IMG/VR virus record: IMGVR_UViG_3300033156_000961 | Coordinates: 1 to 22,179 of that record | Direction: 5' to 3' (one strand) | Source: a virus | DNA: 22,179 nucleotides | In this document: positions 1,002 through 19,397 of the stretch, one piece after another | Layout of the letters: every line of letters begins with the position of its first letter | Numbering within the stretch: the stretch's first letter is position 1 | Made by a program: the position numbers and the translations under genes | The notes under the pieces: model-generated | What the model was told of the DNA's origin: nothing | Databases searched by the model: none | Seen by the model: the letters and a program-made list of their open reading frames with translations, nothing else

Positions 1002-1628
1002 TTATGCTTCATCATATACAAATGTAGCTGTCTTACTAGCCTTTAATCCTTGTGTAGCCCCAGAACCAACTATAACTTGAGTTACTACTATATATGATTT
1101 TCCTGTTGCATTCTGACCGAGCCATTGACCAGATACTACCATTAGAGCATTAGCTAGAGAATCAAAATTAGTTATGCTTGATTTTTTACCAGCACAATTA
1201 CTATAATACCAATGATCTGCTTCTATTAAATTACCACTGGTTCCTTGATTTCCTATAGCTTGTGTATATTTATCTTGTGGGCATCCTTGGGTTAAAACCC
1301 TGCAATCACCAACAGATGAAGATGATACACCAACAACTAAATCCCCACTGGTACCCAAAGACCAGTCAGAATTAGGAGATGTATTCCAAGTTTGATAATA
1401 TCTTACATTTTTTATATAAGTATCTGGACCAGATGTACAATCTAAGCACACCGATTTCCAATAAGATGGTCTAGTTCCAGTAGTAGGGACAGGTATTGGA
1501 TATGCTGTAGATCCAGAATCTGCAACATCTGCTGTATAATATCTACTCACTATGGAAGTATTCTTCAAGGTATAGCTCTGGCTACCAGATGGACCAGTAA
1601 TTTCTTTAATTGTTACAGTTGCTACCAT
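1002..1628 (-). CDS. Tail/virion structural protein, beta-rich (208 aa)
   Basis: Opens with MVATVTIKEITGPSGS and continues with Tyr/Ser/Thr/Gly-rich beta segments and almost no charged helices, the composition of a virion surface or tail protein. A PIPVPTTGT motif near residue 44 is followed by a Y-W-K-S-V-C-L-D-C segment; this pattern occurs in phage structural proteins I recall, but I cannot name a family. Six Cys residues could form disulfides or bind metal. The start has no clear Shine-Dalgarno; the TGTATGTT-type element 37 nt upstream suggests its own promoter and a short-leader or leaderless mRNA. Located after the tail chaperone, where tape measure or tail genes normally begin, but far too short to be a tape measure. 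Confidence 0.6.
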   Translation of the reverse strand: MVATVTIKEITGPSGSQSYTLKNTSIVSRYYTADVADSGSTAYPIPVPTTGTRPSYWKSVCLDCTSGPDTYIKNVRYYQTWNTSPNSDWSLGTSGDLVVGVSSSSVGDCRVLTQGCPQDKYTQAIGNQGTSGNLIEADHWYYSNCAGKKSSITNFDSLANALMVVSGQWLGQNATGKSYIVVTQVIVGSGATQGLKASKTATFVYDEA

Positions 1629-1664
1629 ATTAATACTTTTCTTTCATATTCTATTTCAAACTAA

Positions 1665-1672
1665 CACATACA
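1665..1672 (-). promoter_or_regulatory. Candidate late promoter element (TGTATGTG) for the 208-aa tail protein
   Basis: On the minus strand TTATGTATGTGTTAG lies 37 nt before the ATG at 1628. It differs by one base from the TGTATGTT word at the capsid, tube and scaffold genes. Promoter function is inferred from repetition and spacing. Confidence 0.45.
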
Positions 1673-1705
1673 TAATATACAACAAAAAATGTAATACTAA
1701 ATCAT

Positions 1706-1749
1706 GAAGTAGAAAGATCATCATCAAAAAACAATGATGATCCTACTTC
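1706..1749 (-). repeat. Long inverted repeat (two-part hairpin) between tail chaperone and tail protein genes
   Basis: GAAGTAG (1706-1712) pairs with CTACTTC (1743-1749), and GATCATCAT (1716-1724) pairs with ATGATGATC (1734-1742), giving 16 perfect base pairs interrupted only by a three-base AAA bulge, with a nine-base loop. On the minus strand the hairpin is followed by a six-base U tract (+ strand A-run near 1683-1688). It could be a terminator or processing hairpin for the upstream operon, or a small RNA starting near 1755, because a TGTATGTT element lies at 1790-1797. No ORF uses this stretch. Confidence 0.7.
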
Positions 1750-1789
1750 ACTATTGAAACTAAATAAATTAATTAATACTTACATTTAA

Positions 1790-1797
1790 AACATACA
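1790..1797 (-). promoter_or_regulatory. Candidate late promoter element (TGTATGTT) with no ORF behind it
   Basis: Exact TGTATGTT on the minus strand, immediately after the stop of the chaperone extension at 1800. About 35-40 nt downstream, where other copies have a start codon, lies the start of the 1706-1749 hairpin instead. It may drive a leader or a small RNA. Confidence 0.4.
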
Positions 1798-1799
1798 TT

Positions 1800-1997
1800 C
1801 TATCTTAATCTAGAAGATCTAGATGATCTCTGTGCTTCTTTATATGCCTTATACTCCTGCTCAGCTTTCCATATAATATAACTTTCTATGAAAGCCATAC
1901 CATCTGGATCTTCTTCTCTGAGTTTGCCTATCTGCTTTGGAGTTTTACCAAGAAATTCACAGAGCTTAGCTTCTAGCTGACCAACTCCAGACTTAAC
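1800..1997 (-). CDS. Tail assembly chaperone, C-terminal extension (T part, made by frameshift)
   Basis: A 65-codon stretch open in the +1 frame relative to the upstream chaperone ORF, beginning GTT AAG TCT GGA and ending at TAG 1802-1800. It encodes VKSGVGQLEAKLCEFLGKTP and then helical, charged sequence ending in a basic tail (RSSRSSRLR). It has no start codon or ribosome site of its own and begins where the upstream ORF stops. This is the arrangement of the lambda G/GT pair, in which a fraction of ribosomes shift frame and add a second domain that recruits tail tube protein to the tape measure. The predicted fusion is about 226 residues. Confidence 0.7.
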   Translation of the reverse strand, partial: VKSGVGQLEAKLCEFLGKTPKQIGKLREEDPDGMAFIESYIIWKAEQEYKAYKEAQRSSRSSRLR

Positions 1998-2481
1998 GAA
2001 AGGATTGGAGTTCTTCAGAGGTTACTCCAGTTCCCCTCTGAGTTTCTCTAATCAATTCGGTTATAAAGTTCTGAAGAGTTGCAAATGATACTTTATTTGT
2101 CCAGAAATTCTTATCAAGAGATTTATCTAAAGTAAGAGAGGCAGCTAATTCAGGAAGCTGATCATAAATCTCTACCATCTTCTTGAGAGATTCTGGATCC
2201 ATTTTTCCTTCATAGATAGCTGCTTCAGCTGATAATCTCATAATAGTCATCATTTCTTTTTGTGTTGGTCTTTTAGCTAATACCGTCCTTTTAGTCTCAG
2301 GTGAAGAGAAGAAGGTTACGTTAATGATATCCTCATTGTAATCCCTCTCAAGTTTTTCTCTAGTAGCTATTTGTCTAATCAATTCTTTTGTATCTGTTTT
2401 CTTTTTCTCACCTACCTTCTCTTCAAGCTCTTTGAATTTCTCTTTAATATCAGCAGGTTTGTCTTTTGAATTTTCAGCCAT
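1993..2481 (-). CDS. Tail assembly chaperone, zero-frame product (G-like)
   Basis: A 162-residue, highly charged, mostly helical protein: a Lys/Glu-rich N-terminus (KEKFKELEEKVGEKKKTD) and a helical core (RPTQKEMMTIMRLSAEAA). A segment of the form V-T-F-F-S-S-P-E-T-K-R-T followed by a beta strand is typical of tail chaperones, which fold around a short beta hairpin plus helices. A strong Shine-Dalgarno (GGAGGTAAA) precedes ATG 2481. It lies directly downstream of the two tail-tube genes, the canonical position. The zero-frame stop TAA (1995-1993) directly follows a TTT CGT that suits +1 slippage. The family assignment rests on position plus the overlapping extension. Confidence 0.72.
   Translation of the reverse strand: MAENSKDKPADIKEKFKELEEKVGEKKKTDTKELIRQIATREKLERDYNEDIINVTFFSSPETKRTVLAKRPTQKEMMTIMRLSAEAAIYEGKMDPESLKKMVEIYDQLPELAASLTLDKSLDKNFWTNKVSFATLQNFITELIRETQRGTGVTSEELQSFR
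1998..2001 (-). promoter_or_regulatory. Predicted +1 programmed frameshift site (TTT C in TCC TTT CGT TAA)
   Basis: The zero frame reads CAA TCC TTT CGT TAA. A tRNA-Phe with a GAA anticodon on UUU can slip to UUC, after which GTT AAG continues the open +1 frame. The next zero-frame codon is CGT, probably rare here because most Arg codons read nearby are AGA, and a stop follows at once; both favour slippage. The shared open window is only about nine codons (2021 to 1993), and TTT C is the best re-pairing site in it. Confidence 0.6.
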
Positions 2482-2522
2482 TACGGAATTTACCTCCGAC
2501 TTTTTTTTTCTACCTAATTAGT

Positions 2523-2546
2523 ATATCTCCAAAAATAAAGAGATAT
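2523..2546. repeat. Short inverted repeat upstream of the tail chaperone
   Basis: ATATCTC (2523-2529) and GAGATAT (2540-2546) are perfect arms around a ten-base A-rich loop, between the tube gene stop (2565) and the chaperone start (2481). It may be a 3' end or processing hairpin for the tube mRNA. Confidence 0.5.
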
Positions 2547-2564
2547 TACAGTATAACATTTCCT

Positions 2565-3020
2565 TTAATCAGGAAAATCTGTTATATAAGTTCCTCCACC
2601 TTCTAGATGAGTTACACTTGAAACTTTATATGGATATAGCAGTGTGAAATCTACAGATCCTTCTGTGATATCATCAGCAGTACCAATTGAAAAATCGAAA
2701 CCAGTGATCTGACAACTTTTGAAATAGAAGTGTAATGAATTAGTCCCGGTGTTTCCTGATATCTGTACAGAATGACCATCTATCATGCAACCAACAATTG
2801 GACCAACAGCTGAATTATGAAGCTTACAAGATGTAAAAGATCCATCAGCTGATATAGATCCAGCAAGATAGAAATTACCTTTAGCTCCTACTAACTCCTG
2901 TTCGGCTGTACCTTTGCTAATAGTAAGTGAAAAATCTGATAGCGCTAGCACTGTGTGTGATTGGCTGCTTATGAATATTTTAGCATCCTCACCAGTATAT
3001 ATAGTTGGGGTTCCTGCCAT
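2565..3020 (-). CDS. Tail tube protein, paralog 2 (151 aa)
   Basis: A beta-rich protein with the signature found in tube-like proteins of long-tailed phages: SDFSLTISKGTAEQELVGAK followed by a G-N-F-Y-L-A-G-S-I-S-A-D-G-S-F segment. The same positions are matched by the next gene upstream (GDFSLTFSRDTIEQDLIGMP and G-N-Y-F-D-Q-G-A-L-S-C-D-G-S-L), and both share a later S-C-Q-[IV]-T-[GS]-F-D segment, so the two are tandem paralogs. The start at 3020 has GTGAT ahead of the ATG, and this site overlaps the TGA of the upstream gene (3029-3027). One may form the tube and the other a terminal or modified ring; which is the main subunit cannot be told. Confidence 0.75.
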   Translation of the reverse strand: MAGTPTIYTGEDAKIFISSQSHTVLALSDFSLTISKGTAEQELVGAKGNFYLAGSISADGSFTSCKLHNSAVGPIVGCMIDGHSVQISGNTGTNSLHFYFKSCQITGFDFSIGTADDITEGSVDFTLLYPYKVSSVTHLEGGGTYITDFPD

Positions 3021-3026
3021 TTTTTA

Positions 3027-3512
3027 TCACGCATCCGTAATACAACCGCCGATATATTTAATTTTTTGTGGGAGCATATGAACAAAGTCTATGCTTGCAG
3101 TTGTGATAGTGCTTGCATCTCCAACTGAAACATCGAAGGATGTAACTTGGCATGATACCAAATACCAACTTAAGTAACTATAAGATGTATCAGTAGATAC
3201 TGTACCAGATATAGCTAAATATTCAGAGGAGGCATTTACATATCCAGTATCGACTAGATTCTCAAGTAACTCCGCTATTCCACTAGTAGCAAATTTTGCT
3301 GCTGTTAATGATCCATCACAGGACAATGCTCCTTGATCGAAATAATTTCCTGGCATACCTATAAGATCCTGCTCTATGGTATCTCTGCTAAATGTTAGAG
3401 AGAAATCACCGATACCATATTCTGCATTTCCATAGGTGAAGGAAGGAGAAGTCCCACCATCATGAGTAGTGATCAGCACTCTCGCATCTCTACCTGTAAC
3501 TGTTCCGGCCAT
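3027..3512 (-). CDS. Tail tube protein, paralog 1 (161 aa)
   Basis: Beta-rich tail tube candidate. After MAGTVTGRDARVLITT comes GDFSLTFSRDTIEQDLIGMP, a tube-type motif, then Y-F-D-Q-G-A-L-S-C-D-G-S-L-T-A and a C-terminal V-S-C-Q-V-T-S-F-D-V-S-V-G-D-A-S strand pair. It is clearly related along its length to the following 151-residue protein. It has its own TGTATGTT element 36 nt before ATG 3512 and an AGGGA ribosome site, consistent with high late expression and with being the major tube subunit. Located after the tail terminator gene and before the tail chaperone, the usual order. Confidence 0.77.
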   Translation of the reverse strand: MAGTVTGRDARVLITTHDGGTSPSFTYGNAEYGIGDFSLTFSRDTIEQDLIGMPGNYFDQGALSCDGSLTAAKFATSGIAELLENLVDTGYVNASSEYLAISGTVSTDTSYSYLSWYLVSCQVTSFDVSVGDASTITTASIDFVHMLPQKIKYIGGCITDA

Positions 3513-3547
3513 AATCTTTTTTCCCTATATACGGCTTAACATTTAAA

Positions 3548-3555
3548 AACATACA
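3548..3555 (-). promoter_or_regulatory. Candidate late promoter element (TGTATGTT) for the tail tube genes
   Basis: Minus-strand ATATGTATGTTTTTAAATG, with TGTATGTT 36 nt ahead of ATG 3512 and directly after the previous gene's stop (3559). Same word and spacing class as the capsid gene. Confidence 0.5.
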
Positions 3556-3558
3556 TAT

Positions 3559-3957
3559 CTAATCATCATGAAATAATTTATATGAGTAGGTTTGTGTCTT
3601 CCTATATAATCCTGTTTCATCATCATACATTTCTATATCAGATTCTTTACTACATCCTCCAGATATCAATGTCTTTACTACAGCATCAGCGATATCTAGA
3701 GTTTCTTTTCTACTCTTTTTAGAGAATATATCTAACTGAAGCAAAGCCTCTTCTAATCTAATTTTTGATCCAGCTGCTGCAGTCCTATATCCCAAGTATC
3801 CAATATCCGAACCACCAGCTTGAGTTATAACTATACATGGAAAGCTATCTTCTAATCTTGTGAATGACATCTTAATATCAGACTTTGGAACCAAATTAGT
3901 TACAGAAGTAGAACTAATTAAGTAATTTCTTATAGTCTTCGTAATATCTAGAGACAT
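3559..3957 (-). CDS. Tail terminator/completion-like protein (132 aa)
   Basis: The N-terminal helix MSLDITKTIRNYLISSTSVT leads into a loop (NLVP) and then strand-rich sequence (SFPCIVITQAGGSD, EEALLQLDIFSKKSR), followed by a helix (ETLDIADAVVKTLISGG) and a terminal strand (TQTYSYKLFHDD). This alpha-beta pattern, with a helix-start and Q-L-D-I-F strand, is that of small tail terminator or completion proteins. The gene sits between the gp10-like protein and the tail tube genes, the canonical place. ATG 3957 lies just beside the upstream stop (3959), indicating coupling. There is no catalytic motif. The assignment is moderately secure and based on pattern plus order. Confidence 0.68.
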   Translation of the reverse strand: MSLDITKTIRNYLISSTSVTNLVPKSDIKMSFTRLEDSFPCIVITQAGGSDIGYLGYRTAAAGSKIRLEEALLQLDIFSKKSRKETLDIADAVVKTLISGGCSKESDIEMYDDETGLYRKTQTYSYKLFHDD

Positions 3958-3958
3958 A

Positions 3959-4471
3959 TCATATCCTTCTAATAGCTTTTTCTAGATTATATTCTATTAG
4001 ATTTTTAATACTATTCTGCACATCTTTGGATCTTACTGCTGTAGTAAAGTAGTATTTAGGAGATTGGATAGTAAAATATGCACTCCAATGATCTCCAGCA
4101 CCTTGTTGTCTACCTATAGGCCATCCCTTATATTTTTTAGAGCTAGCATATATCTTAGTTCTACCTTGGCGTAATACAGTATCACCAAACTCAACAACAG
4201 CTGCATGTTTAGAGATACATTCAAGAGCAACTTTTAAATCTTCCTCACGTCTAATAGTCCAATTATTTTTATCTGCAATAGATTCACCATCTATAGATAA
4301 GTGAGGATTTACTGATTTGTCTATTAGATTTTCTATAGCTTTATCTCTGAGATACATAGCACTATCTTCTAGTCCTTGTCTGATATTATGAGGTATTGCA
4401 AGTTTTAATTTTTTTATCTTACCAGCAATTAATTTCTTACCTCTAATTTGAGTTACTCTTATAGTAGTCAT
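3959..4471 (-). CDS. HK97 gp10-like head-tail/tail completion protein (170 aa)
   Basis: Basic at both ends, with an early helix (IPHNIRQGLEDSAMYLRDKA) and the short H-A-A-V-V-E-F-G-D motif near residue 90 that is typical of HK97 gp10-like proteins (usually V-E-F-G-T). It ends in a helix, NLIEYNLEKAIRRI. The family acts at the neck or tail-terminator joint. The start ATG (4471-4469) overlaps the stop of the preceding closure-like gene (4468), so the two are translationally coupled. An insertion around residues 100-130 (Q-G-R-T-K-I-Y-A-S and the following Trp/Tyr-rich part) makes it somewhat longer than many relatives. Confidence 0.72.
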   Translation of the reverse strand: MTTIRVTQIRGKKLIAGKIKKLKLAIPHNIRQGLEDSAMYLRDKAIENLIDKSVNPHLSIDGESIADKNNWTIRREEDLKVALECISKHAAVVEFGDTVLRQGRTKIYASSKKYKGWPIGRQQGAGDHWSAYFTIQSPKYYFTTAVRSKDVQNSIKNLIEYNLEKAIRRI

Positions 4472-4788
4472 ACTACTTTTTTCAATAAAGCCTTTTTATA
4501 TGTAAATGAAGAGTCTGTTACCACTTCTCTAACTCTAAATACTTGATTATTGTATGTTATCTCACTATCTTTTGAAATAGAAGCTGATGAAGTACAATAG
4601 CATATATAATTAACATCTTCATATAGTCCAGGATAATCTATCTTAATTCTATCAGTAACTGGAACTACTCTAGAGGGGATGGGAGATGAACTGTTAGTAT
4701 AAGTATATGTCCATTCACCCAAATCATTCTGGGAAGATGCTCTAGTTCGAAGATATATATTGGTATTTAATAAACTTTCAAATGTCAT
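4468..4788 (-). CDS. Head closure/stopper-like protein (106 aa)
   Basis: An all-beta small protein: MTFESLLNTNIYLRTRASSQ, then D-L-G-E-W-T-Y-T-Y and a second half with S-K-D-S-E-I-T-Y-N-N-Q-V-F-R-V-R-E-V, the closing pattern of SPP1 gp16-type head closure proteins, where a short barrel carries an 'x-g-x-x-y-x-V-x-x-V' strand. Its position after the adaptor (140 aa) and before the gp10-like gene supports this. Its ATG (4788-4786) overlaps the TGA of the HNH gene (4787-4785) as ATGA, and its own end overlaps the next start. There is no enzymatic motif. Confidence 0.65.
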   Translation of the reverse strand: MTFESLLNTNIYLRTRASSQNDLGEWTYTYTNSSSPIPSRVVPVTDRIKIDYPGLYEDVNYICYCTSSASISKDSEITYNNQVFRVREVVTDSSFTYKKALLKKVV

Positions 4789-5021
4789 TTTAATTTTATT
4801 ATATTTGCATGTATCTTATAATGACAATCTGCACATAATACGATTAAATTTTTTCTTGAATTATCATGTGATATACTAATTGGGACTATATGATGAAGAT
4901 GTAATTGACCTTTAGCATATCTTCCACACAATTGACATCTATACCCAGCTTCTTTGAATAAAGCTTGTCTTAATCTATTCCAGTTTTCTGGATATAGAGG
5001 TGATGGTCTGTAGCTAGTCAT
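4785..5021 (-). CDS. HNH endonuclease, small, nested between head-tail connector genes
   Basis: A 78-residue protein with a complete HNH core: C-Q-L-C near 29-32, H-L-H-H-I-V-P-I near 41-48, an N-L-I-V-L-C motif, and C-x2-C-H-x3-H at the end (LCADCHYKIH). These provide the zinc-binding Cys pairs and the catalytic His of the beta-beta-alpha metal fold. Phage HNH proteins near terminase or connector genes often act in packaging-linked DNA cutting; freestanding homing activity is the alternative. The gene overlaps both neighbours (5014-5021 and 4785-4788), so it is integrated in the operon rather than loosely inserted. The metal-binding and catalytic residues look intact. Confidence 0.85.
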   Translation of the reverse strand: MTSYRPSPLYPENWNRLRQALFKEAGYRCQLCGRYAKGQLHLHHIVPISISHDNSRKNLIVLCADCHYKIHANIIKLK

Positions 5022-6009: not shown

Positions 6010-6046
6010 AAAAAAATAAGGGAGATAATTATCATCTCACCTTATT
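6010..6046 (-). terminator. Hairpin plus U-tract terminator behind the major capsid gene
   Basis: On the minus strand AATAAGG pairs with CCTTATT (+ strand 6040-6046 and 6015-6021), extended by GAGAT/ATCTC arms, and is followed directly by a run of seven U (+ strand A6010-A6016). The stem overlaps the capsid stop codon at 6044-6042. This is a bacterial-style hairpin terminator; archaeal polymerase stops at U-tracts, so the stem may protect the capsid mRNA 3' end. Confidence 0.65.
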
Positions 6047-7016
6047 TATGATATATTACACATCCAGCTTTCTCGTTGAGAACATCTGCGCCGAATCTCA
6101 TCGTTACAGAAAGTCCAACTAGGTCATGGATTGGATCATCATACTGTTCTATTGTGATGTCACGCTTCATGCAGATGACACCAAGGTCATTTTTAGATAG
6201 CACTATAGCAGTAACATCTGAGCCTGCAGTTGTATCATCCCAAGTTGGTGATGATGAATCTGTTGCGGTACAGGTGTATGGAGTTAAACCCATGACTTTT
6301 GGAATCTTTCCTTCTGTTAGAGATGTGTTTGTTCCAGCATATGCAACATACGCTAGATTTGAATCGCTGAGTAGATATCCCTCTGCTGTTGGATGTGTAA
6401 CTAATGTATCTGCAAGATAGTTTTGTTTTTTGACTTTAGAGATACCCAATGCTACATCAGATACTGCAATGTGTGGACCAGCTGGATTAAGAGTGTTCGT
6501 GGTTATTTTATTTGCACCATTTAATATTTTGTTCAAGCACTCTCTGTTTAGAGCATTTTCCATCTTAGCTCCAGCCTTCTTGAGTTCAAGCTCGACTACA
6601 TCGAACAGAGAATCTTCTATTAGCTCATTAGTTATCAGTGGTCTAACTCCCCATTTGTCTATTGTAATATCTTGCTTGGTGTAAGTCTGAATATCTATGT
6701 TTATAGCAGCACCTTCAGCTACTTTTTCTGCATAACTTCCGGTCTCACCCTTGATAAATCGCACTGAGTATGAATCAGCTTTAATTACTGGGAAAATCTC
6801 TCTAAAACACTTGAAGGGTTCAGCACCTTCTATGATTGTTTTGTAGACTTCCTCCTGAACTAATGTTGAATTATTTATTGCATCTTTGTCTGATTGCAAT
6901 AATTTGTGTGTGTTCTCTCCAACAGCTTTCTTGAAGGACTCTTTATTTAGGAGTCTGCTTCTCTCTGCATTTCCTGCAAAGCCATATTCTAATAGTTTAG
7001 AAAGTTTGTGAGTCAT
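6042..7016 (-). CDS. Major capsid protein, HK97 fold (324 aa)
   Basis: The N-terminal ~40 residues are helical and charged (delta-domain-like). They are followed by an N-arm and E-loop region around residues 70-125 (R-E-I-F-P-V-I-K-A-D-S-Y, then G-S-Y-A-E-K-V-A-E-G-A-A-I), a spine-helix region (ITNELIEDSLFDVVELELKK) and a P-domain/A-domain end with a G-K-I-P-K-V-M-G-L strand. The terminal VLSKNDLGVICMKRDITIEQ and L-S-V-T-M-R-F-G-A-D-V-L-N-E-K-A segments are typical for this fold. Length is normal for the family. It lies between decoration and connector genes, with a TGTATGTT element 33 nt upstream and a hairpin terminator behind it. No obvious protease cleavage site can be fixed from sequence alone. 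There is no clear Shine-Dalgarno, so a leaderless mRNA is likely. Confidence 0.88.
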   Translation of the reverse strand: MTHKLSKLLEYGFAGNAERSRLLNKESFKKAVGENTHKLLQSDKDAINNSTLVQEEVYKTIIEGAEPFKCFREIFPVIKADSYSVRFIKGETGSYAEKVAEGAAINIDIQTYTKQDITIDKWGVRPLITNELIEDSLFDVVELELKKAGAKMENALNRECLNKILNGANKITTNTLNPAGPHIAVSDVALGISKVKKQNYLADTLVTHPTAEGYLLSDSNLAYVAYAGTNTSLTEGKIPKVMGLTPYTCTATDSSSPTWDDTTAGSDVTAIVLSKNDLGVICMKRDITIEQYDDPIHDLVGLSVTMRFGADVLNEKAGCVIYHK

Positions 7017-8257: not shown

Positions 8258-9226
8258 ATTACCTTTTTCATTATTACATTCACAACATACAGAATTTAAA
8301 TTTAAATCATTATACTTTGATTTAGATATTACTACAAATCCCGATTTTTCATTAACTGGTAACGAACAGATAGATACCTCAAATATATTTATAGCATCAA
8401 GAACTTCTATACATTTTGATTCATCGCATTCCTCGTGAGATAATATAACTTCACAGCCTATTGAAAATCCATTAAATTCTCCATTTAGTATAGATTCCCA
8501 TATTTTATCTGCTATTTTAAGATCTTTTCTGATTTCAGCGACTATAAATAATCCATTATCATCTACCCTTGTTTTTAGATTTCCATAGGATTTGAGAATT
8601 CTTCCTATCTGAATATTCTTATGAACTAACATTAGATTAGAATAATTTGGATCTGATATAAGAGTTTCTAATCCTGTTTTGAGTACAGAAATTGGTATGA
8701 ATTGGTTTTCACTATCCACTACAGCTACAGATGCATATCCAGCTATAATTCTTCTACCATCAGATGCTTTATCTATTATTTCTAAGTTACCGTTTAAATT
8801 GAATGGGATTTTTTTAGACATCTCTACCACTTTGAAATCATTTACAGGAACTAAGTCTAATTCATATAATGGGATGTAGCTAGTATAGCTTCCAGCATTA
8901 TTATAATGGATATGTACATACTTAGCTACATCTTCATAATTACATTTTAAGATATCTGTAAATAATCTGTATAATCTAAAATCAATTGCTTCTTTTAGTT
9001 TGTCAGAAAAATCTTCACCTCTAATGACTATGTCTATATCATTACTAGACTTTCCTTGAGTAGCTAGAGACCCAACTATCATTATCAAGGGTTTTCTTAA
9101 AGATATTGGTTTTATATTCTCTAACACCTTTTCTTTAGATATAGAAATATCACTATGTTTACCACTTGGTGGAGTTGAAGCATAAGCCTCCTCTCCAAGT
9201 TGAGATAATTCTTTTATATCATTCAT
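7562..9226 (-). CDS. Fusion: pol-beta-type nucleotidyltransferase + prohead protease (XkdF/S78-like) + scaffold
   Basis: Numbering from ATG 9226 (554 aa). Residues ~35-130 form a minimal nucleotidyltransferase: G52-S53 (VGSLATQGKSSNDIDIVIRG), D63 and D65 of the D-x-D pair, and a candidate third Asp D124 in Y-E-L-D-L-V-P. Residues ~145-305 are a capsid maturation protease: H202 in L-V-H-K-N, S255 in G-E-F-N-G-F-S-I-G, and an I-F-E-V-S-I-C-S-L-P-V-N segment. The rest is a very acidic linker followed by coiled coils, as in scaffolds that are digested during maturation. The ATG overlaps the TGA of the holin-like gene (ATGA); a TTG nine bases earlier is less likely. A nested start at 8257 may give free scaffold. 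A nucleotidyltransferase joined to a capsid protease is unusual, and its substrate is unknown. Confidence 0.82.
   Translation of the reverse strand: MNDIKELSQLGEEAYASTPPSGKHSDISISKEKVLENIKPISLRKPLIMIVGSLATQGKSSNDIDIVIRGEDFSDKLKEAIDFRLYRLFTDILKCNYEDVAKYVHIHYNNAGSYTSYIPLYELDLVPVNDFKVVEMSKKIPFNLNGNLEIIDKASDGRRIIAGYASVAVVDSENQFIPISVLKTGLETLISDPNYSNLMLVHKNIQIGRILKSYGNLKTRVDDNGLFIVAEIRKDLKIADKIWESILNGEFNGFSIGCEVILSHEECDESKCIEVLDAINIFEVSICSLPVNEKSGFVVISKSKYNDLNLNSVCCECNNEKGNMPEEENIEVVEETATEEAATEDEELVENDVVEEKTEEKTDNIQERISELEREIESLRGIVTNLLEPKAEECEDEECEDEEEKKKEETEEETQEEEEKGGLVSVIKEKIKDLLKKETVTKKDIEELAKLINKLEGGKYPNPEKYPYPKKAIEDLNAKIDKLIEVLSKETEEKELELAIKARDDKISELEKQLEEMEKSKSKAKPKTIIEENEEEEQLESSLRVMGGIVYSED
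8284..8291 (-). promoter_or_regulatory. Late-promoter-like TGTATGTT inside the protease-scaffold gene
   Basis: Exact copy of the late word within coding sequence, 27 nt before the internal ATG 8257 and preceded by AT-rich sequence. It would direct scaffold-only mRNA. A single word inside a gene could also be chance. Confidence 0.4.
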
Positions 9227-9889: not shown

Positions 9890-12800
9890 CTATAGTTTAT
9901 TAAAGAATTTCTTTTTTGATTCCTCTCTATATTTTTCTCTGCCAAATTTCTTAACTTTTGATGCCTTTGTTGGGTAGTTATATCCAATATCAGCGTGTTT
10001 TATACTATCCATTGGTTTTGGATTTTCGATTGCCTTCCAAACTTCCCATCTAGCTGTTTTATCTGGCCTCTTGAGACATTTTATGATAAACCTGCCTTTT
10101 AATATCTTATCATCTTTAGTCTTGTCTGGATAGAAGAAATATTCATGACAATCATCTCTTGCAACTCCTGTTTTTACTTTACCTATATAGAAGCAGGACA
10201 TATATGCCCACTTATATGGATTTGACCCAACATCACCAGGTTCTATCCAGTATGAATATTCAGGCATATCTAGCTTCTCTATAAGTTTTGCTCCTTTTAA
10301 ATCTATAAGTGGTTCTTTTTCTTTACTCTTCTTTGTGATATCAACCTCTTTGGGTTCAGCACTTGGTTTTACTATTGCTAGACTATGTGCTACATTCATA
10401 ATACCACCAGCTGTCTTTCTATGAGCTCCTGTATACATTTTATAATAGTCTTGTATCGTATTATCAGTAAATACCCATTGTATAAGCATTTTTTCTCCTA
10501 CAGAGCATCTCATATCTGTATGAACGGAGTGGCCTTTAATAATATCAGCGAGGGATTTCTTACCTTTATCATAAGCATCCTTTTCTTCTTGTGTTATCCC
10601 TCTAATGTGATGTTGAAACCATATCCTTCCAGATTTTGGATTGATATATAGCTCTTTAGGAAGAGGCTCGTTGTCTTTAGCTATTGAATCATATATATCT
10701 TTGGGGATTTTACCACTTTCTACCCAGTTTTTTATATCATCTTTCTTTATCGATTTATTATTAATAATATTATCTATATTTAATCTTTCAATATCTAATT
10801 CTCTTATTCTAGATGCTAATTTAATAATCTCATTAGTTATCTCTTCTCTCTTTTTTAATAAAGATTTTGTGTCTATATCTAATTTATTTTCTCCTCTAAT
10901 GTGTCTCAATTCTTCTACTGGTATTCTCTTTGGCTCCATTAGAGATAGTTTATTAACCAAAGATACTGTATCTGTTTTATTTTTTTCTGGTATCAATTCC
11001 ATCACTCTTCCAATATAGAAAGAGTATCTTGGAAATTTCTCATTAACTGGATTATCATATCTAAGAAATTCCTCTCCAGCTATCCGTAGTATATCACCAA
11101 TATTAGCTTTAATATTAGTATTGTCTGTCTTACCCAGTACCATCTCATATTGTCCAGTTTTACCTATAGAATCTTTACCTCTATAGAATTTACCATCTGA
11201 TAATATTCCAACTGAGTGATACCAATCCTTTGTTTTCATTGACACTAACGCATCGTAATAGTCCTTATCAATATCAAGACCTATCCAATAATTATAAGTT
11301 CCTTTACTTCCTTTAACTAAATGTTTTTCTAGAACTCTTCCATCATATTCATGATAAATCTTAGCTTTTCCCCAACCATGATTTGTTGGAGCATCATATG
11401 GATGAGATAACAATTTTATCATTACACCCTCTGCTATAAACTTCGGTCTATCTATTTTATGATTTATAATATTATCTATGGCTTTATTTATACTAGATAT
11501 GTTAGATACTATATAGGCATCTGTCTTCTTATTATCGATATTAGTTGTAGTTCTTTCTATCCATATATGTTTAGATGATTTTATCCTTTGTAAATATTCT
11601 AATCTTTCGTGGAGAGGAAATGATCTGATATCTTCTCCATCATAGAATAGACAGTCAAATGCATATACATATGCATAGTCTTTTAATTCTTCTGGTGATA
11701 TCTTCTTTGCATTTAATAATGAGTTAGCTACAGTTCTATGAAGTATTTCTTTTCCATCCTTATCTAGTGCTATGAATTCTCCATCTATAATTGTATTCGG
11801 TGGAAGTAATTCTTTTAATTCTTTAATAATTTCTGGAAGTCTGGATGAAACATCTGGAGATTTTCCTTTTAATAATTCTGGATCTACATATACAAATGGC
11901 TCATCTCCAGACTTACCAAGAGTTATTCTAAGACCATCAGCCTTGATGTCTATAAGTAATTTTTCATTCAGCCATTTAGCATTCCTTAGTTCTTCATCTA
12001 TAGTTTCAAGTTGAAATCTATAGTAAGGTTTTGCTGTAGACCAATATTTCTTTTTAATCTTTGATTTAGTAACTATAATTTCTGATCTCTTTTTATCCCA
12101 ATCCTTTGCTTCATCATATGATTTTGGAGGATAAGATTTCATATACTTTTCAGATTCTTTATAGCATTTCCAATAAGAGGATTTTTTAGCCTTCTCTGGG
12201 TCCTTTCCAGTATATTCTCTATAGAGATTTTCATCAAAAGGTGGTATAATTGTGAAGTATACACTTCTAAGCACATCAACTAATTTAGCAAAGTATCTAT
12301 ATACTAAATCTAAAGTCCAATCTCCCCATTTCTCTCCTTTCTTTAGTTTTGGATAAGCTGAATTTCCTAAATATCTTAAATCTGCTATACATTCTCTCCA
12401 TCTCTCTTTAACATTTTTCATGTCAGAATCGATGCCTTCTCTTTTAAATTCATCTGGATGGAGTTTATTTTCTAATTTGCTTTTTAATGTGATTACAGAA
12501 TCTTCAGTCAATATCTTTCCATTATATTTAGATAATTCATTCTTAATATCTTTGATTTTATTTTCTAGACTTTTTCTAAGATTAGTCAAATATATTCTTT
12601 CTGGTTTTAATCTATCAGCTAGGTCTAATAATTCTTTAAATGTAGCTTTATGGTCATTTGGTTTTCTTTTATCGTATTCACCAACACCAATTATCCAGAT
12701 ACTTTCTTTTATTAAGTCTTGTTCATATTTACCTAGTCTATCAAATTCTGGTATAATAGATATCTTTTTGTTACGATATGATAATCTAATCCCGATTGCT

Positions 12801-13141
12801 GGCTTACCAACCATTGGTGGTATAGCCATAAAATTGAAGTGAACATGATATAAGTTTATTGATTCTGATATATGCTTGAAATTGCCTTTGAGATCGATAT
12901 TATCTAACACACCTTTAGATGATAAAACTGGTACATTTGGATATTTTTTAAGATAGTTCTTGAGATAGTGGAAATGATCCTCATCTGATTGAGTCACTAT
13001 AATATAATCAACTTTTTTGTCATATTTAACTGATGGATCTATCCAAATAGCATGTCCATCTATATCTAGTAATAAACTAAAATGTTTTTTATTAGGTGTA
13101 GTTAGTGAAGCTGATGTTCCTAATGAAATTATTTTAATCAT
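9890..13141 (-). CDS. Fusion: metallo-beta-lactamase fold + ATP-dependent DNA ligase + LigD phosphoesterase-like domain
   Basis: 1083 residues. (1) Residues 1-215: MBL fold (ISLGTSASLTTP; F-S-L-L-L-D-I-D-G). The usual H-x-H-x-D-H is Q51-S-D53-E-D55-H56, and the late T-H is T-N (L-T-N-L), so metal binding is altered. (2) Residues ~385-720: nucleotidyltransferase/OB core of ATP-dependent ligases: K400-A-D-G-L-R (AMP-accepting Lys), D-G-E 453-455, F-D-C-L-F-Y-D-G 495-502, E-G-V-M-I-K 571-576, W-G-K-A-K 590-594. All motifs are intact. (3) Residues ~760-800 coiled coil, then 835-1045: W-F-Q-H-H-I-R-G, H871-S-V-H874-T-D-M-R878 and I-Q-W-V-F, like the H-Y-D-F-R-L-E core of LigD 3'-phosphoesterase, with an insert. 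The ATG overlaps the upstream HIT gene (ATGA). Expected role: sealing or trimming DNA ends. The location inside the head genes is remarkable. Confidence 0.85.
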   Translation of the reverse strand: MIKIISLGTSASLTTPNKKHFSLLLDIDGHAIWIDPSVKYDKKVDYIIVTQSDEDHFHYLKNYLKKYPNVPVLSSKGVLDNIDLKGNFKHISESINLYHVHFNFMAIPPMVGKPAIGIRLSYRNKKISIIPEFDRLGKYEQDLIKESIWIIGVGEYDKRKPNDHKATFKELLDLADRLKPERIYLTNLRKSLENKIKDIKNELSKYNGKILTEDSVITLKSKLENKLHPDEFKREGIDSDMKNVKERWRECIADLRYLGNSAYPKLKKGEKWGDWTLDLVYRYFAKLVDVLRSVYFTIIPPFDENLYREYTGKDPEKAKKSSYWKCYKESEKYMKSYPPKSYDEAKDWDKKRSEIIVTKSKIKKKYWSTAKPYYRFQLETIDEELRNAKWLNEKLLIDIKADGLRITLGKSGDEPFVYVDPELLKGKSPDVSSRLPEIIKELKELLPPNTIIDGEFIALDKDGKEILHRTVANSLLNAKKISPEELKDYAYVYAFDCLFYDGEDIRSFPLHERLEYLQRIKSSKHIWIERTTTNIDNKKTDAYIVSNISSINKAIDNIINHKIDRPKFIAEGVMIKLLSHPYDAPTNHGWGKAKIYHEYDGRVLEKHLVKGSKGTYNYWIGLDIDKDYYDALVSMKTKDWYHSVGILSDGKFYRGKDSIGKTGQYEMVLGKTDNTNIKANIGDILRIAGEEFLRYDNPVNEKFPRYSFYIGRVMELIPEKNKTDTVSLVNKLSLMEPKRIPVEELRHIRGENKLDIDTKSLLKKREEITNEIIKLASRIRELDIERLNIDNIINNKSIKKDDIKNWVESGKIPKDIYDSIAKDNEPLPKELYINPKSGRIWFQHHIRGITQEEKDAYDKGKKSLADIIKGHSVHTDMRCSVGEKMLIQWVFTDNTIQDYYKMYTGAHRKTAGGIMNVAHSLAIVKPSAEPKEVDITKKSKEKEPLIDLKGAKLIEKLDMPEYSYWIEPGDVGSNPYKWAYMSCFYIGKVKTGVARDDCHEYFFYPDKTKDDKILKGRFIIKCLKRPDKTARWEVWKAIENPKPMDSIKHADIGYNYPTKASKVKKFGREKYREESKKKFFNKL

Positions 13142-13461
13142 TTATCATATTTTATTATTCCTTCTATATGAGCATGCCAATGATCTCTAATGGTTCTTCT
13201 TTTTAGTCGAAGAGTTATTCCTCTCCCAAATATCATTTTACTTCTATATAGAATTCTACCCCATGATTCTCTGGATATAGAGGTTACATGCTCATTATAA
13301 ACTACCATTGGAATTTTACAATTAGAGCAATCAACTATAACAAACTCTGATGTTGGAATATCTCTTGGATCTTCTGGCCAATATAATTTTGTGATAATTC
13401 TACCTTTTGAAAATATTTCACACAGTGGGCAACCATCTACTAGAAAAGTATCTGAATTCAT
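13138..13461 (-). CDS. HIT-superfamily (histidine triad) nucleotide hydrolase/transferase-like protein, zinc-binding
   Basis: Start chosen at ATG 13461 (107 aa), four bases after the stop of the preceding ORF; a longer start at 13527 would overlap that ORF by 62 bp. The protein opens with a C-P-L-C pair followed by E-I-F (compare C-x-F-C-K-I of Hint proteins), has C-S-N-C in the middle followed by K-I-P-M-V-V-Y-N-E-H, and ends with D-H-W-H-A-H-I-E-G, which matches the H-x-H-x-H-x-x triad. The two Cys pairs suggest a structural zinc. HIT enzymes act on nucleotide phosphoramidates and AMP adducts; aprataxin removes AMP from failed DNA ligation ends. ATGA overlap with the ligase fusion (13141) makes a functional link likely, but the specific aprataxin role is inference. 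Confidence 0.72.
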   Translation of the reverse strand: MNSDTFLVDGCPLCEIFSKGRIITKLYWPEDPRDIPTSEFVIVDCSNCKIPMVVYNEHVTSISRESWGRILYRSKMIFGRGITLRLKRRTIRDHWHAHIEGIIKYDK

Positions 13462-13465
13462 TTGG

Positions 13466-13675
13466 TTACAACCATTCTCGTCTAAGCGGAACCCAGTGTC
13501 CTGAGCTTGTTGTTCCAGACCAAACATATAGACACGTAGCTATAGCATTACCACCTTCTATTCCAGATGGTTTGAATCCAGTTATGTTTATAACACCATC
13601 TGAAAATGATGCAGAAGATGTAATTCCATCCGCTCTATAAGTTCCTATTATTGTTATTAAACCCCACTCTCCCAA
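13466..13675 (-). CDS. Small beta-rich ORF, TTG start (69 aa), possibly virion protein
   Basis: No ATG is available; the frame would start at TTG 13675 without a clear Shine-Dalgarno, so the start is uncertain. The translated sequence is Gly/Ser/Thr-rich with beta pattern (DGVINITGFKPSGIEGGNAI, then T-C-L-Y-V-W-S-G-T-T-S-S-G-H-W-V-P-L). This resembles single modules of viral surface proteins and argues that the ORF is real. It fills the gap between the 51-residue zinc protein and the HIT gene, with no other gene in this stretch. I do not recognise a family. Confidence 0.45.
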   Translation of the reverse strand: MGEWGLITIIGTYRADGITSSASFSDGVINITGFKPSGIEGGNAIATCLYVWSGTTSSGHWVPLRREWL

Positions 13676-14332: not shown

Positions 14333-15523
14333 CTAACTCCCATCTTTTTTCAACGGCGCATAGCCAAACATAGCTCTAATTTCATCAACAGAGAATGGTT
14401 TCTCTTCACCCTCTCTATAACCTCTAAGTAAATTACCTAACCATTTTGCTTTAACAGCTTCATCTGCATCGGTTACCGAATTAAATTTAATATCTACAGT
14501 TCCTTCTTTTTTATTATATTCCTTTAATATAGCATCTATCAATTCATTTTTTGTTTGATTTGCTAGTTTCATTTGAAATGCTCTTATCATCCTTTCATAT
14601 AGTATTTCTTTTACTTTTGCTGTGGCTTCTGTAGATCCTTGTCCTAAACCCAACGCTTCTTCTGGACATAATAGCCCTATTACTGATTGGGTTAAGAAAA
14701 TATTAAAGTATTCTTCTACACCCTGAACTCCTTTTTCATCTATAGTATCTATCTTAACTACACCAGGAACTACAAACTCATTGGTTGATACAATATCTTC
14801 AAACTTCTTTTCGATATCCTCCATTATTTCTCTTGGAGGTATATCATTTTCATTCCCGACTGTGATTACATATTTTGCTGTATGTCTCTGGATTGCATTA
14901 AATATAGCTTCATCTGTTTCTATCTTTCTATCTATAGTATTCTTACTCGGTTCAATTAGTGATATTCCATATGGAGAAGATGGGTTTGGAAAGAATTTTA
15001 TATGAATAATATCTTCTGGTTTTAATACTACATCTCTTACCTTTCCATTTATTATTTGTTGATAAGATTCTATATTTCCATATGGATCTGTATTAATTAC
15101 TATAGTTTTAGGATCTACGGTCTTGAGATCTGTTATTCTTCCAGAGGGTGTTCTAACAATCTCTATGAATGCATCGCCATATACTAGAGCAAAGACAACA
15201 TTATCTAATAATATTGACTGGAAGTTTAATTTATCTAAATATTTTTGTATTAACTTTTTAGCTTCTTCATCTTCAGAGGTAAGATGGTAGCCCACCATAA
15301 CCGTATTCCAAGCAGTGATATTAATACTAGCAAATACTATTCCCTCTCCATTATAGTATTTCCAATAAGTTTCTAAAGTGTTTACATTTCGAGTAGATGT
15401 CTTTGGGGTTCCTGAATATCTTTTTTTGCCTGTATATACAATAGTTTTGTATCTTCCAGATTCATCCTTCCATATAGAGTTTTTTCTTCTTCTAAATAAT
15501 TTAAATGGATTATATAATTTCAT
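14333..15523 (-). CDS. Portal protein (396 aa)
   Basis: HK97-family portal features: a basic N-terminus (NPFKLFRRRK), a wing with F-A-S-I-N-I-T-A-W-N-T, the clip/stem region with N-V-V-F-A-L-V-Y-G-D-A-F-I-E-I, D-P-K-T-I-V-I-N and P-E-D-I-I-H-I-K-F-F-P-N, followed by S-P-Y-G-I-S-L-I-E-P. A long helical C-terminal half carries T-Q-S-V-I-G-L-L-C-P-E-E-A-L-G-L-G-Q-G and E-A-T-A-K-V-K. It forms the dodecameric DNA gate at the capsid vertex and docks the terminase. Length is normal for archaeal and bacterial tailed viruses. It stands between Alba/terminase and the protease gene. The start at 15523 has only a weak ribosome site. Confidence 0.88.
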   Translation of the reverse strand: MKLYNPFKLFRRRKNSIWKDESGRYKTIVYTGKKRYSGTPKTSTRNVNTLETYWKYYNGEGIVFASINITAWNTVMVGYHLTSEDEEAKKLIQKYLDKLNFQSILLDNVVFALVYGDAFIEIVRTPSGRITDLKTVDPKTIVINTDPYGNIESYQQIINGKVRDVVLKPEDIIHIKFFPNPSSPYGISLIEPSKNTIDRKIETDEAIFNAIQRHTAKYVITVGNENDIPPREIMEDIEKKFEDIVSTNEFVVPGVVKIDTIDEKGVQGVEEYFNIFLTQSVIGLLCPEEALGLGQGSTEATAKVKEILYERMIRAFQMKLANQTKNELIDAILKEYNKKEGTVDIKFNSVTDADEAVKAKWLGNLLRGYREGEEKPFSVDEIRAMFGYAPLKKDGS

Positions 15524-15799: not shown

Positions 15800-17221
15800 T
15801 TACCTCCCTATTTTTCTGATTCTATATTTCTCTTTGTTAACATTCCTAGTTGGGGTTGTTATCTTAGTGTGAATTAAACTAGGAACTTCATTCCAATTTA
15901 TCTCTCTCTCTTTTTCAGAAAGATGAGAGATTTGGATAGCAAATGAAAGGGAATCTATTGTATCATCGTGAGCTCCTCTTGGGAACACTTTTAGTTCCTC
16001 AATCCAATCATCTAATTCAGGATTCATAAATATCCTATTGGTCTCAAAGAGTACCGATAATCTCTGAACTCTTGACATTCTATCATTAGCTATAGAGGTT
16101 TTTATTGGAACAAGTGGTAATGTGCTTATTTCCATGAGTTGATCTGTTATTATCTTCTGTTGAGCCGATGATTCTATTCCTATTCTAATTGGATTCCACT
16201 TTCCAGCGTAAGATTGAATTAATTCAAATTGTCTAAACAATGATGTTTTGGTCCGAAGACCATCTACAACATATATACATCCATTAGCAACTAATATTAC
16301 AGTTATGCAGAAATAATCAGAATCATCTCCAGCTGAAGCAAAATCAACTCCTATGTATGATTCATAAGGAGGGATTGGGATTCTATAATTCTCAATTGAA
16401 TTTTGTAACCATTCACCTCTTATGGGTGAATTCTTATCCATTATTATATTATTTTGATATTGAAGCTCAAAGCTTATTGATCCGATACTTCTTTCTATAG
16501 CTTTTAATTTTTCATATGAGTATCTTTCAGGCCACAGAACTATTTTCTTTTCTCTATCTATGATTGCTTGATATCTCTTAGTTGTAAAACTGGGATCTCT
16601 AGAAAGATAATCATATATATCCCTTTCATTCCATCTAGTTCCTATAGTTATTATTTTTCCTTCTGGTTCTAGCATAGGAACTAGAGTTTGGTTATACCAT
16701 CTTATTAATTCTCTTCTTCTATGTTCTGTTCTAGAATTTCTTTGATCTGTAATATCATCTAAAACTATGATATCATAATGCCCTCCAACCATGGAGGAGG
16801 TGATACCCAATACTGTAACTGTTGGCTCTTTATGAGCAAACCCAGATTTGCCAGCTCTTCTAACTTTTAAAGCTGACCTCGTCCATACACCAGAATATCC
16901 TCTCTGGTCACCAAATAATTCTATTAATTTTTGATTCTCTTCTAGATGATGTTTAATAAAACTCATCATCTCATCAGCCTTATCTTGGCTGATAGTCACT
17001 ATCAATATCCTAATATCAGGATCTCTTATAATTCTCCAAATTATATAAGCTCCAACAAGACTGGTTTTACCATGTGATCTTGGAGCTTGAAGGCAAACGA
17101 ATTGGTGTTTCTCAAATAATTCTAACCATTCCCTATGGAAATTTTTACACTCTAATCCTAATACATCAGTAGTGAAAGCTATAGGATCAAGCGAATATTT
17201 TAATAATTCAAGTTCTGCCAT
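15800..17221 (-). CDS. terL: Terminase large subunit (ATPase + nuclease), 473 aa
   Basis: ATPase: Walker A A46-P-R-S-H-G-K-T53; Walker B I-I-V-L-D-D 151-156; coupling motif I-G-T-R-W 193-197. C-terminal RNase H-like nuclease: D293 in G-V-D-F-A-S, E350 in I-G-I-E-S-S, and D419-D420 in H-D-D-T-I-D-S-L. All expected acidic residues are present, so both motor and cutting activity should work. The protein has normal length and ends in a basic tail (RNVNKEKYRIRKIGR). It translocates DNA into proheads through the portal encoded downstream. The start at 17221 has no strong ribosome site but has late-type elements 35-50 nt upstream. Confidence 0.93.
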   Translation of the reverse strand: MAELELLKYSLDPIAFTTDVLGLECKNFHREWLELFEKHQFVCLQAPRSHGKTSLVGAYIIWRIIRDPDIRILIVTISQDKADEMMSFIKHHLEENQKLIELFGDQRGYSGVWTRSALKVRRAGKSGFAHKEPTVTVLGITSSMVGGHYDIIVLDDITDQRNSRTEHRRRELIRWYNQTLVPMLEPEGKIITIGTRWNERDIYDYLSRDPSFTTKRYQAIIDREKKIVLWPERYSYEKLKAIERSIGSISFELQYQNNIIMDKNSPIRGEWLQNSIENYRIPIPPYESYIGVDFASAGDDSDYFCITVILVANGCIYVVDGLRTKTSLFRQFELIQSYAGKWNPIRIGIESSAQQKIITDQLMEISTLPLVPIKTSIANDRMSRVQRLSVLFETNRIFMNPELDDWIEELKVFPRGAHDDTIDSLSFAIQISHLSEKEREINWNEVPSLIHTKITTPTRNVNKEKYRIRKIGR

Positions 17222-18872: not shown

Positions 18873-19397
18873 ATGTGTGAAAAAATCAACATAACGGAAA
18901 TAAAGGAAATTGATGAAACCTATCTCAAGATAGATAGGCTATTACAAGAAAATAAAGAAATAGAAAAACCAACATTCGATGAGAAAGAATGTTGCGTTTT
19001 AAATACAAAAAATATAATAAAAATCTTACAATTATTCGGAAATAAAAGAATACTTGTAAGATACGGTATAGCATTTTTCAGGAGTAACAGTTATTGGAAA
19101 GTAAACTTATGTAATACTGAAAAATTACCTGACTACTTAAAGAAAAATCGGAAATCATTACACAGATTAGTTTATACAGTATATTACGGTTATCCTAAAG
19201 GTATTACTTCAAAAGACTTTGAAATCCATCACATGTGTAGAAATCCAGAATGCTTAAACCCATTACATCTGATAGCTATACCAAAAGATAAACATAAAGA
19301 AGTTGAATATCTAAACCAAAAACTCCTAAAAGAAGGTAAAACCTTTCAAGAGATAAGGTTTATCATAAGGAAAAAATTGAATAAAGGGGAAATCTAA
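18873..19397 (+). CDS. HNH homing-endonuclease-like protein (HNH_3 type, 174 aa)
   Basis: An N-terminal ~85 residues, partly charged helix, precede an HNH_3 core: L-H-R-L-V-Y-T-V-Y-Y-G near 97-107, F-E-I-H-H-M-C near 117-123, R-N-P-E-C-L-N-P-L-H-L near 124-134, then I-P-K-D-K-H. This is the 'H-R-[LV] ... D/I-H-H-x-C ... C-x-N-P-x-H-L' pattern of freestanding phage HNH nucleases. The C-terminal helix is basic (FIIRKKLNKGE). It stands alone on the plus strand between the structural and small-gene blocks, with its own strong promoter. Either a selfish nuclease or an early viral function is possible. Confidence 0.8.
   Translation: MCEKINITEIKEIDETYLKIDRLLQENKEIEKPTFDEKECCVLNTKNIIKILQLFGNKRILVRYGIAFFRSNSYWKVNLCNTEKLPDYLKKNRKSLHRLVYTVYYGYPKGITSKDFEIHHMCRNPECLNPLHLIAIPKDKHKEVEYLNQKLLKEGKTFQEIRFIIRKKLNKGEI

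Follow-up and report, generated by a model that had tools for sequence, protein, structure and literature searches.

Among the described systems that come closest to the locus reported here is a cellular repair operon in which the genes of an MBL exonuclease, a ligase and Lhr lie together, the ligase being linked to the MBL protein. Tailed viruses are thought to depend after entry on host ligases or on ligases of their own that are expressed early. In bacterial LigD and in archaeal NHEJ ligase/phosphoesterase proteins (3n9b, 3p43, 5dmp), a phosphoesterase (PE) and a ligase are combined in one enzyme. The LigD PE, which contains a manganese triad (His42, His48, Asp50) and two phosphate-contact residues (His84, Tyr88), converts 3'-phosphate and 3'-ribonucleotide ends to 3'-OH, whereupon the ligase seals (PMC8656161). 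Polyvalent phage proteins are large, shuffled multidomain proteins that are encoded together with the virion genes of portal-terminase viruses and include 2H and adenine-methylase domains; both "DNA ligase" and XkdF are absent from the 2017 survey of these proteins (PMC5512222). In Lactococcus and Rhizobium phages, proteins annotated as DNA methyltransferase/prohead protease name a DNA-modifying enzyme together with an XkdF-type maturation protease. A protein (AJP62006, in KP703175) of the virus ANMV-1, whose hosts are methane-oxidising archaea, is annotated only as "ATP-dependent DNA ligase"; the word "ligase" is absent from the text of the ANMV-1 paper (PMC4372165) as well as from that of the ANME-1 virome paper (PMC9894754).

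The stretch of DNA analysed here (the window) is the virus record IMGVR_UViG_3300033156_000961 over its 22,179 bases (positions 1 to 22,179). On its minus strand, an ORF of 1083 aa (9890..13141) runs from an ATG at 13141 to 9890 without any internal stop, whereas the plus strand across the same positions is riddled with stops. The encoded protein is organised as altered MBL, KGEKWGDW domain, ATP-dependent ligase, OB-fold region and LigD-type PE. The original prediction had described a single giant ORF, which is indeed intact; the strand was not stated there, and a conserved domain at aa 226-352 was missed.

The genes of TerL, portal, S78 protease and HK97-type capsid protein all share the strand of the ligase-PE ORF; its place inside a capsid gene cluster had been stated in the original prediction. 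The order on the minus strand starts with the terminase large subunit TerL (15800..17221; phrog_38 E=1.4e-88), an 85-aa ORF, the portal protein (14333..15523; PF04860 E=5.4e-13, phrog_9232 E=3.7e-27), a 162-aa ORF with a weak prohead-protease match, and an ORF of 129 aa (13138-13527), the stop of which is overlapped by the start of the ligase-PE gene by 4 bases, such that coupled expression is likely. Two short ORFs follow, then the S78 prohead protease, a 133-aa ORF, the HK97-type major capsid protein (6042..7016; PF05065 E=2.8e-10) and small ORFs. The protease gene comprises, also on the minus strand, a Peptidase_S78 domain (8306..8785; PF04586 E=1.3e-12) and, at the N-terminus of the protein, a nucleotidyltransferase-like (NTase-like) module (8810..9136), which is recognised by the NTase profile of the family (E=1e-7) and by PF01909 only at E=0.015. 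Elsewhere in the window, short ORFs at 4785-5021 (-) and 18873-19397 (+) appear HNH endonuclease-like by eye.

A chimera arising from an assembly error was considered and rejected. The related 16.7-kb contig L012 carries the same fusion, plus one extra module, among the same neighbours, and in L013 (69 kb) the genes stand in the same order, the PE having an overlapping ORF of its own next after the ligase ORF; L002 and L003 are split as well.

The nucleotidyltransferase core of the ligase (aa 391-594; 11360..11971, minus strand) is recognised by PF01068 with 72.6 bits against a cut-off of 26.2 (E=4.8e-20). All of the motifs attributed to an ATP-dependent ligase in the original prediction are present: when aligned with 13 relatives, the window copy retains motifs I, III, IIIa, IV and V in full (K400-x-D402-G403-x-R405, D453-G-E455, F495-D496, E571-G-V, K592-x-K594), and K400 of motif I (KADG; codon at 11942..11944, minus strand), the predicted adenylated lysine, is invariant among the 14 aligned family ligases. 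In NCBIfam, DNA ligase models recognise this stretch too, without reaching the cut-offs set for their full length; TIGR00574 reaches E=1.2e-19, yet stays under its own cut-off. The OB-fold region (about aa 600-720; 10982..11344, minus strand) is placed by position and family alignment only, the family ligase profile spanning aa 361-718. By its motifs, the protein is an ATP-dependent DNA ligase, for which AMP transfer and nick sealing are predicted. An RNA ligase or capping enzyme was rejected, PF01331 scoring under its cut-off and the DNA ligase family far over.

The PE (aa 826-1056; 9974..10666, minus strand) is not matched by LigD_N in Pfam scans of the window protein, nor does a profile of it match PDB sequences in hmmsearch; as sequence-only searches did not detect the domain, structure and profile-profile comparisons were used. 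An AlphaFold2 model of aa 827-1071 has a mean pLDDT of 70, with several core strands at 88-95. The top four Foldseek matches of this model are LigD PE chains (3n9b_B, 3p43, 3n9b_A, 3n9d; probability 0.99-1.00), whereas the fifth has a probability of 0.10. When VIA-align was applied to the matches that Foldseek itself had returned, six LigD-PE entries had Z scores of 10.6 (3p43), 10.2, 8.9, 8.8, 8.0 and 8.0, with 110-120 residues aligned at an rmsd of 2.5-4.3, and the entry ranked after them had 4.0. In the profile-profile comparison with five archaeal LigD PE proteins, P is 2.2e-5, compared to 0.28 for an unrelated control domain.

Residues Q843, H845, H874, D876 and R878 align with Gln40, His42, His48, Asp50 and Arg52 of Pseudomonas aeruginosa LigD, such that H845, H874 and D876 take the places of the manganese triad and constitute, with Q843 and R878, the predicted metal site. 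An HxDxR motif is present in 67 of 74 PE segments of the family. At the positions of His84 and Tyr88 the alignment of the window PE is ambiguous, and several relatives possess E and W there. By its modelled fold and predicted metal site, the C-terminal domain is a LigD-type PE, in agreement with the LigD-phosphoesterase-like block that had been proposed from a short motif.

The protein thus shares with LigD the PE fold, the metal-site residues and the union of PE and ligase in one enzyme, and this part of the original comparison stands. There are also differences: no polymerase domain is found among the Pfam matches of the window protein, which is encoded in a viral head cluster and possesses additional MBL and KGEKWGDW domains. 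On the LigD model TIGR02776, it scores 43.2 bits against a cut-off of 373.2; being far below this cut-off and having no polymerase domain, it is not filed as a LigD. No Ku was found in 11 related records, some of them possibly incomplete; Ku-based NHEJ therefore appears unlikely, and the analogy with Ku-dependent NHEJ is weak.

The N-terminal MBL-fold domain (aa 1-219; 12485..13141, minus strand) is met by Pfam below threshold (PF12706, E=0.0046). The AlphaFold2 model of aa 1-395 (mean pLDDT 83) exhibits an MBL fold, with the ELAC homologue 1zkp as best Foldseek match (E=9.6e-14) and PhnP-like and Apyc1 (7u2r) chains lower in the list. The structure predictions thus recovered both of the folds proposed for the two ends of the protein. 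In the ligand alignment, the metal columns of the window copy read Q51-x-D53-x-D55-H56, followed by E132 and N187, whereas the relatives L004, L019 and L024 possess an intact H-x-H-x-D-H followed by His, Asp and His; the replacement of ligands noted earlier is confirmed by this comparison. In the window and its close relatives, the same columns hold Q/S/D-x-D-x-D-H/E, then P or another residue, E and N, and the set D53, D55, E132 and N187 is invariant across this altered subfamily. Between L002 and L003, the MBL domain has a dN/dS of 0.10, indicating purifying selection.

The altered domain is thus retained for some function, and a canonical nuclease is unlikely there; it is probably a structural or DNA-binding module, or one that uses a different metal site. 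As the canonical ligands are missing, the protein is not filed as an MBL nuclease, and the suggested analogy with MBL exonucleases does not hold for the subfamily of the window. The operon of MBL exonuclease, ligase and Lhr differs further: its genes are cellular and separate, its MBL protein is a canonical nuclease, and its phosphoesterase has an unrelated fold.

Between MBL and ligase lies a conserved domain without a Pfam family (aa 226-352; 12086..12466, minus strand), which contains the motif KGEKWGDW, is 44-53% identical in relatives and is all-helical in the model. It has no convincing match in Pfam, and the Foldseek list for the joint model of aa 1-395 is filled by MBL entries. Across relatives, it adjoins ligase, PE, NTase or protease in varying orders. 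In 58 genomes of the candidate-host archaeal class the domain was not found, in a search that had no positive control. A further module of 115 aa, likewise without a Pfam match, is common to many of the family's ligase proteins and is also situated at the C-terminus of portal-like proteins (L027:5477-7054, L107:1830-3488).

Viral contigs with several of these modules, archaeal genomes and the ANMV-1 record were scanned for related loci. The 83 loci with a ligase or PE form 70 clusters below 90% identity, the window included. A ligase is found in 67 of these clusters, ligase and PE in 60, and both in one ORF in 43, as judged with home-made profiles; these were built from family members, for which their E-values are inflated, and the main fusions were therefore checked with Pfam. 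Besides the fusion shared with L012, the modules thus occur reshuffled in about 70 distinct loci. A recognised head gene (portal, protease or capsid) lies on the same strand in 54 of the 70 clusters and in no cluster on the opposite one; in the other 16 it was unrecognised within the stretch examined. Many of the contigs are fragments. The head-gene profiles derive from few members, such that 54 is a lower bound for the stretches examined. In the pair L002/L003, dN/dS is about 0.1 in every module, which points to purifying selection in relatives.

Further domains for repair or nucleic acids are found in single ligase proteins of the family: a uracil-DNA glycosylase in L105:6302-10057, a D12 methyltransferase in L099:1869-7130, a 2H phosphoesterase in L096:5948-10297 and a NUDIX domain in L043:3-2000.

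Nine clusters contain a ligase that is joined to a capsid maturation protease in one protein. L007 contains ligase and Peptidase_S78_2 (XkdF) in one ORF, with both Pfam domains over their curated cut-offs, and the same combination is Pfam-confirmed in L067, L068, L080, L096, L097, L099 and L105. In L040, one ORF comprises the second half of the ligase, the PE, DUF2213 (the family that in L026 and L029 takes the place of the prohead protease) and an NTase-like segment; an in-frame TAG splits this ligase-PE-DUF2213 protein (1363-4656), the first half of the ligase lying in the preceding ORF, and this TAG could be a decoded codon (pyrrolysine) or the sign of a broken gene. In L016, L021 and L023, the KGEKWGDW domain, together with NTase or PE, is fused to XkdF, and the NTase-like module at the N-terminus of the S78 protease is shared by the window, L012, L013, L053 and L054. 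Three protease families and a portal thus each bear modules of the ligase-PE system. The joining of ligase or PE with maturation proteases in relatives, and of a further module with the portal, makes the link to the head firmer than could be known from the window alone, but fusion to a protease does not amount to proof of packaging. No description of a fusion between a ligase and a capsid protease was found in the open-licence literature.

The organisation in ANMV-1 is similar in that AJP62006, a member of the same family, unites ligase, a first PE and a second PE in one protein of 866 aa, the gene of which is situated directly behind the portal. It differs in having two PE modules and neither an MBL nor a KGEKWGDW domain. 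The ANMV-1 gene at 1913-3193 of KP703175 (L008) bears the annotation "MutT-like phage hydrolase"; as the L026/L028 portal profile matches it, its product is probably the portal. With the polyvalent phage proteins (PMC5512222), the window protein has in common that it is a large multidomain protein encoded among the virion genes of a portal-terminase virus; in contrast to them, its family centres on the repair of DNA ends and counts maturation proteases among its fusion partners. The Lactococcus and Rhizobium phage proteins differ in that their enzyme is a methyltransferase and not a ligase or PE.

The identities of the domains are firm. For the protein as a whole, we favour, with a probability of roughly 55%, a tailed-virus enzyme of the "heal and seal" type, similar to LigD, that is assembled along with the head and works on the viral DNA once this has entered the cell or during packaging. 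The C-terminal PE would clean 3' ends, turning a 3'-phosphate or 3'-ribonucleotide into a 3'-OH, and the ATP-dependent ligase would then close the nick or joined end. Expressed together with the head genes, the enzyme would most probably join the procapsid, in the window as partner of the maturation protease that bears the NTase-like module and in some relatives as one chain with the protease, which, as the fusions suggest, may free it. Because ligation needs ATP, it is impossible inside a sealed particle, which counts against this reading; the most likely substrate is nicked or linear viral DNA after ejection, possibly already at packaging. Of the original prediction of an all-in-one DNA-end healing enzyme, the union of ligase and LigD-type PE in one head-cluster polypeptide is supported, and the analogy with MBL exonucleases is not. 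The protein would act like LigD and resembles polyvalent capsid-borne proteins, and it may be packaged into the head and delivered to the host.

Sealing of the genome after entry is our presumption, and repair during packaging would account for the sequence data almost equally well. In many members the gene lies just behind the portal, in L027 and L107 modules are fused to the portal itself, and ATP is at hand outside the particle; an enzyme that works beside portal and terminase on concatemeric DNA, removes nicks and blocked ends and is not carried to the next cell would agree with all three. Maturation proteases work inside the procapsid, however, and such a role would not require the enzyme to be fused to them; we regard it as the main rival, though as a full account it is rather unlikely. 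The head-cluster ligase is the sole PF01068 protein in 18 of 20 records, a finding that speaks for the heal-and-seal enzyme but also for a plain viral ligase of repair or replication whose gene happens to stand among the late genes and is unconnected with the head; the strand bias of 54 to 0 and the physical fusions to three protease families and a portal make this improbable.

Apyc1, an MBL protein degrading cyclic nucleotides, is among the structural neighbours of the MBL domain, and relatives bear methyltransferase, 2H-phosphoesterase and NUDIX domains. The 2H and adenine-methylase domains occur in polyvalent proteins as well (PMC5512222), such that the window protein might be an anti-defence cargo, i.e., a polyvalent capsid protein whose MBL, nucleotidyltransferase and phosphoesterase parts are directed against host nucleases or nucleotide-signal defences, with ligation being secondary. 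Yet the MBL of the window is devoid of canonical ligands and the constant core of the family consists of ligase and PE, i.e., end chemistry, and we consider such a cargo very improbable.

Returning to the heal-and-seal enzyme, a wider reading can be offered tentatively, at slightly less than even odds: tailed viruses of a class not described before, among them viruses that infect methane-oxidising archaea, would load a self-contained repair protein (ligase, 3'-phosphoesterase and nucleotidyltransferase, in one member with a uracil-DNA glycosylase as well) into the capsid, either fused to the maturation protease or as its partner, and would deliver it along with the genome, so that the incoming DNA is mended and sealed. 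If this holds, some tailed viruses carry their own end-repair machine in the particle; speculatively, this could also be relevant to the way in which viruses of slow-growing archaea in sediments deal with DNA damaged during prolonged extracellular persistence. Head-cluster genes whose best present annotation is "ATP-dependent DNA ligase" obtain a common definition from the family, which also contributes at least one conserved domain that is new and is a source of compact ligases that have end cleaning built in.

Concerning the host, ANMV-1 and the genome contigs with relatives, which are binned as Methanosarcinales, Methanophagales and Euryarchaeota (metagenome bins), suggest that the virus of the window infects archaea. 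Its terminase gives no clear host signal. MCM was tried as a marker of archaeal hosts and had no match over the cut-off in 20 records; it is a poor marker, the family having matched all 14 control genomes, bacteria included. Among the matches listed from 50,697 phage records, only ANMV-1 contains the ligase-PE family, and the others listed represent the ligase core or the protease alone.

Intein-like insertions are situated within the ligase domain in L009:5576-9358 and L010:3175-5160, in the NTase of L019:7971-14078 and in the PE region of L099:1869-7130, the last with Pfam Hint and intein-splicing matches. In L002:11218-17996 and L003:13902-22200, genes that appear by eye to be glycosyltransferase-, radical SAM-, ThyX- and sugar-metabolism-like are situated between the PE gene and the protease.
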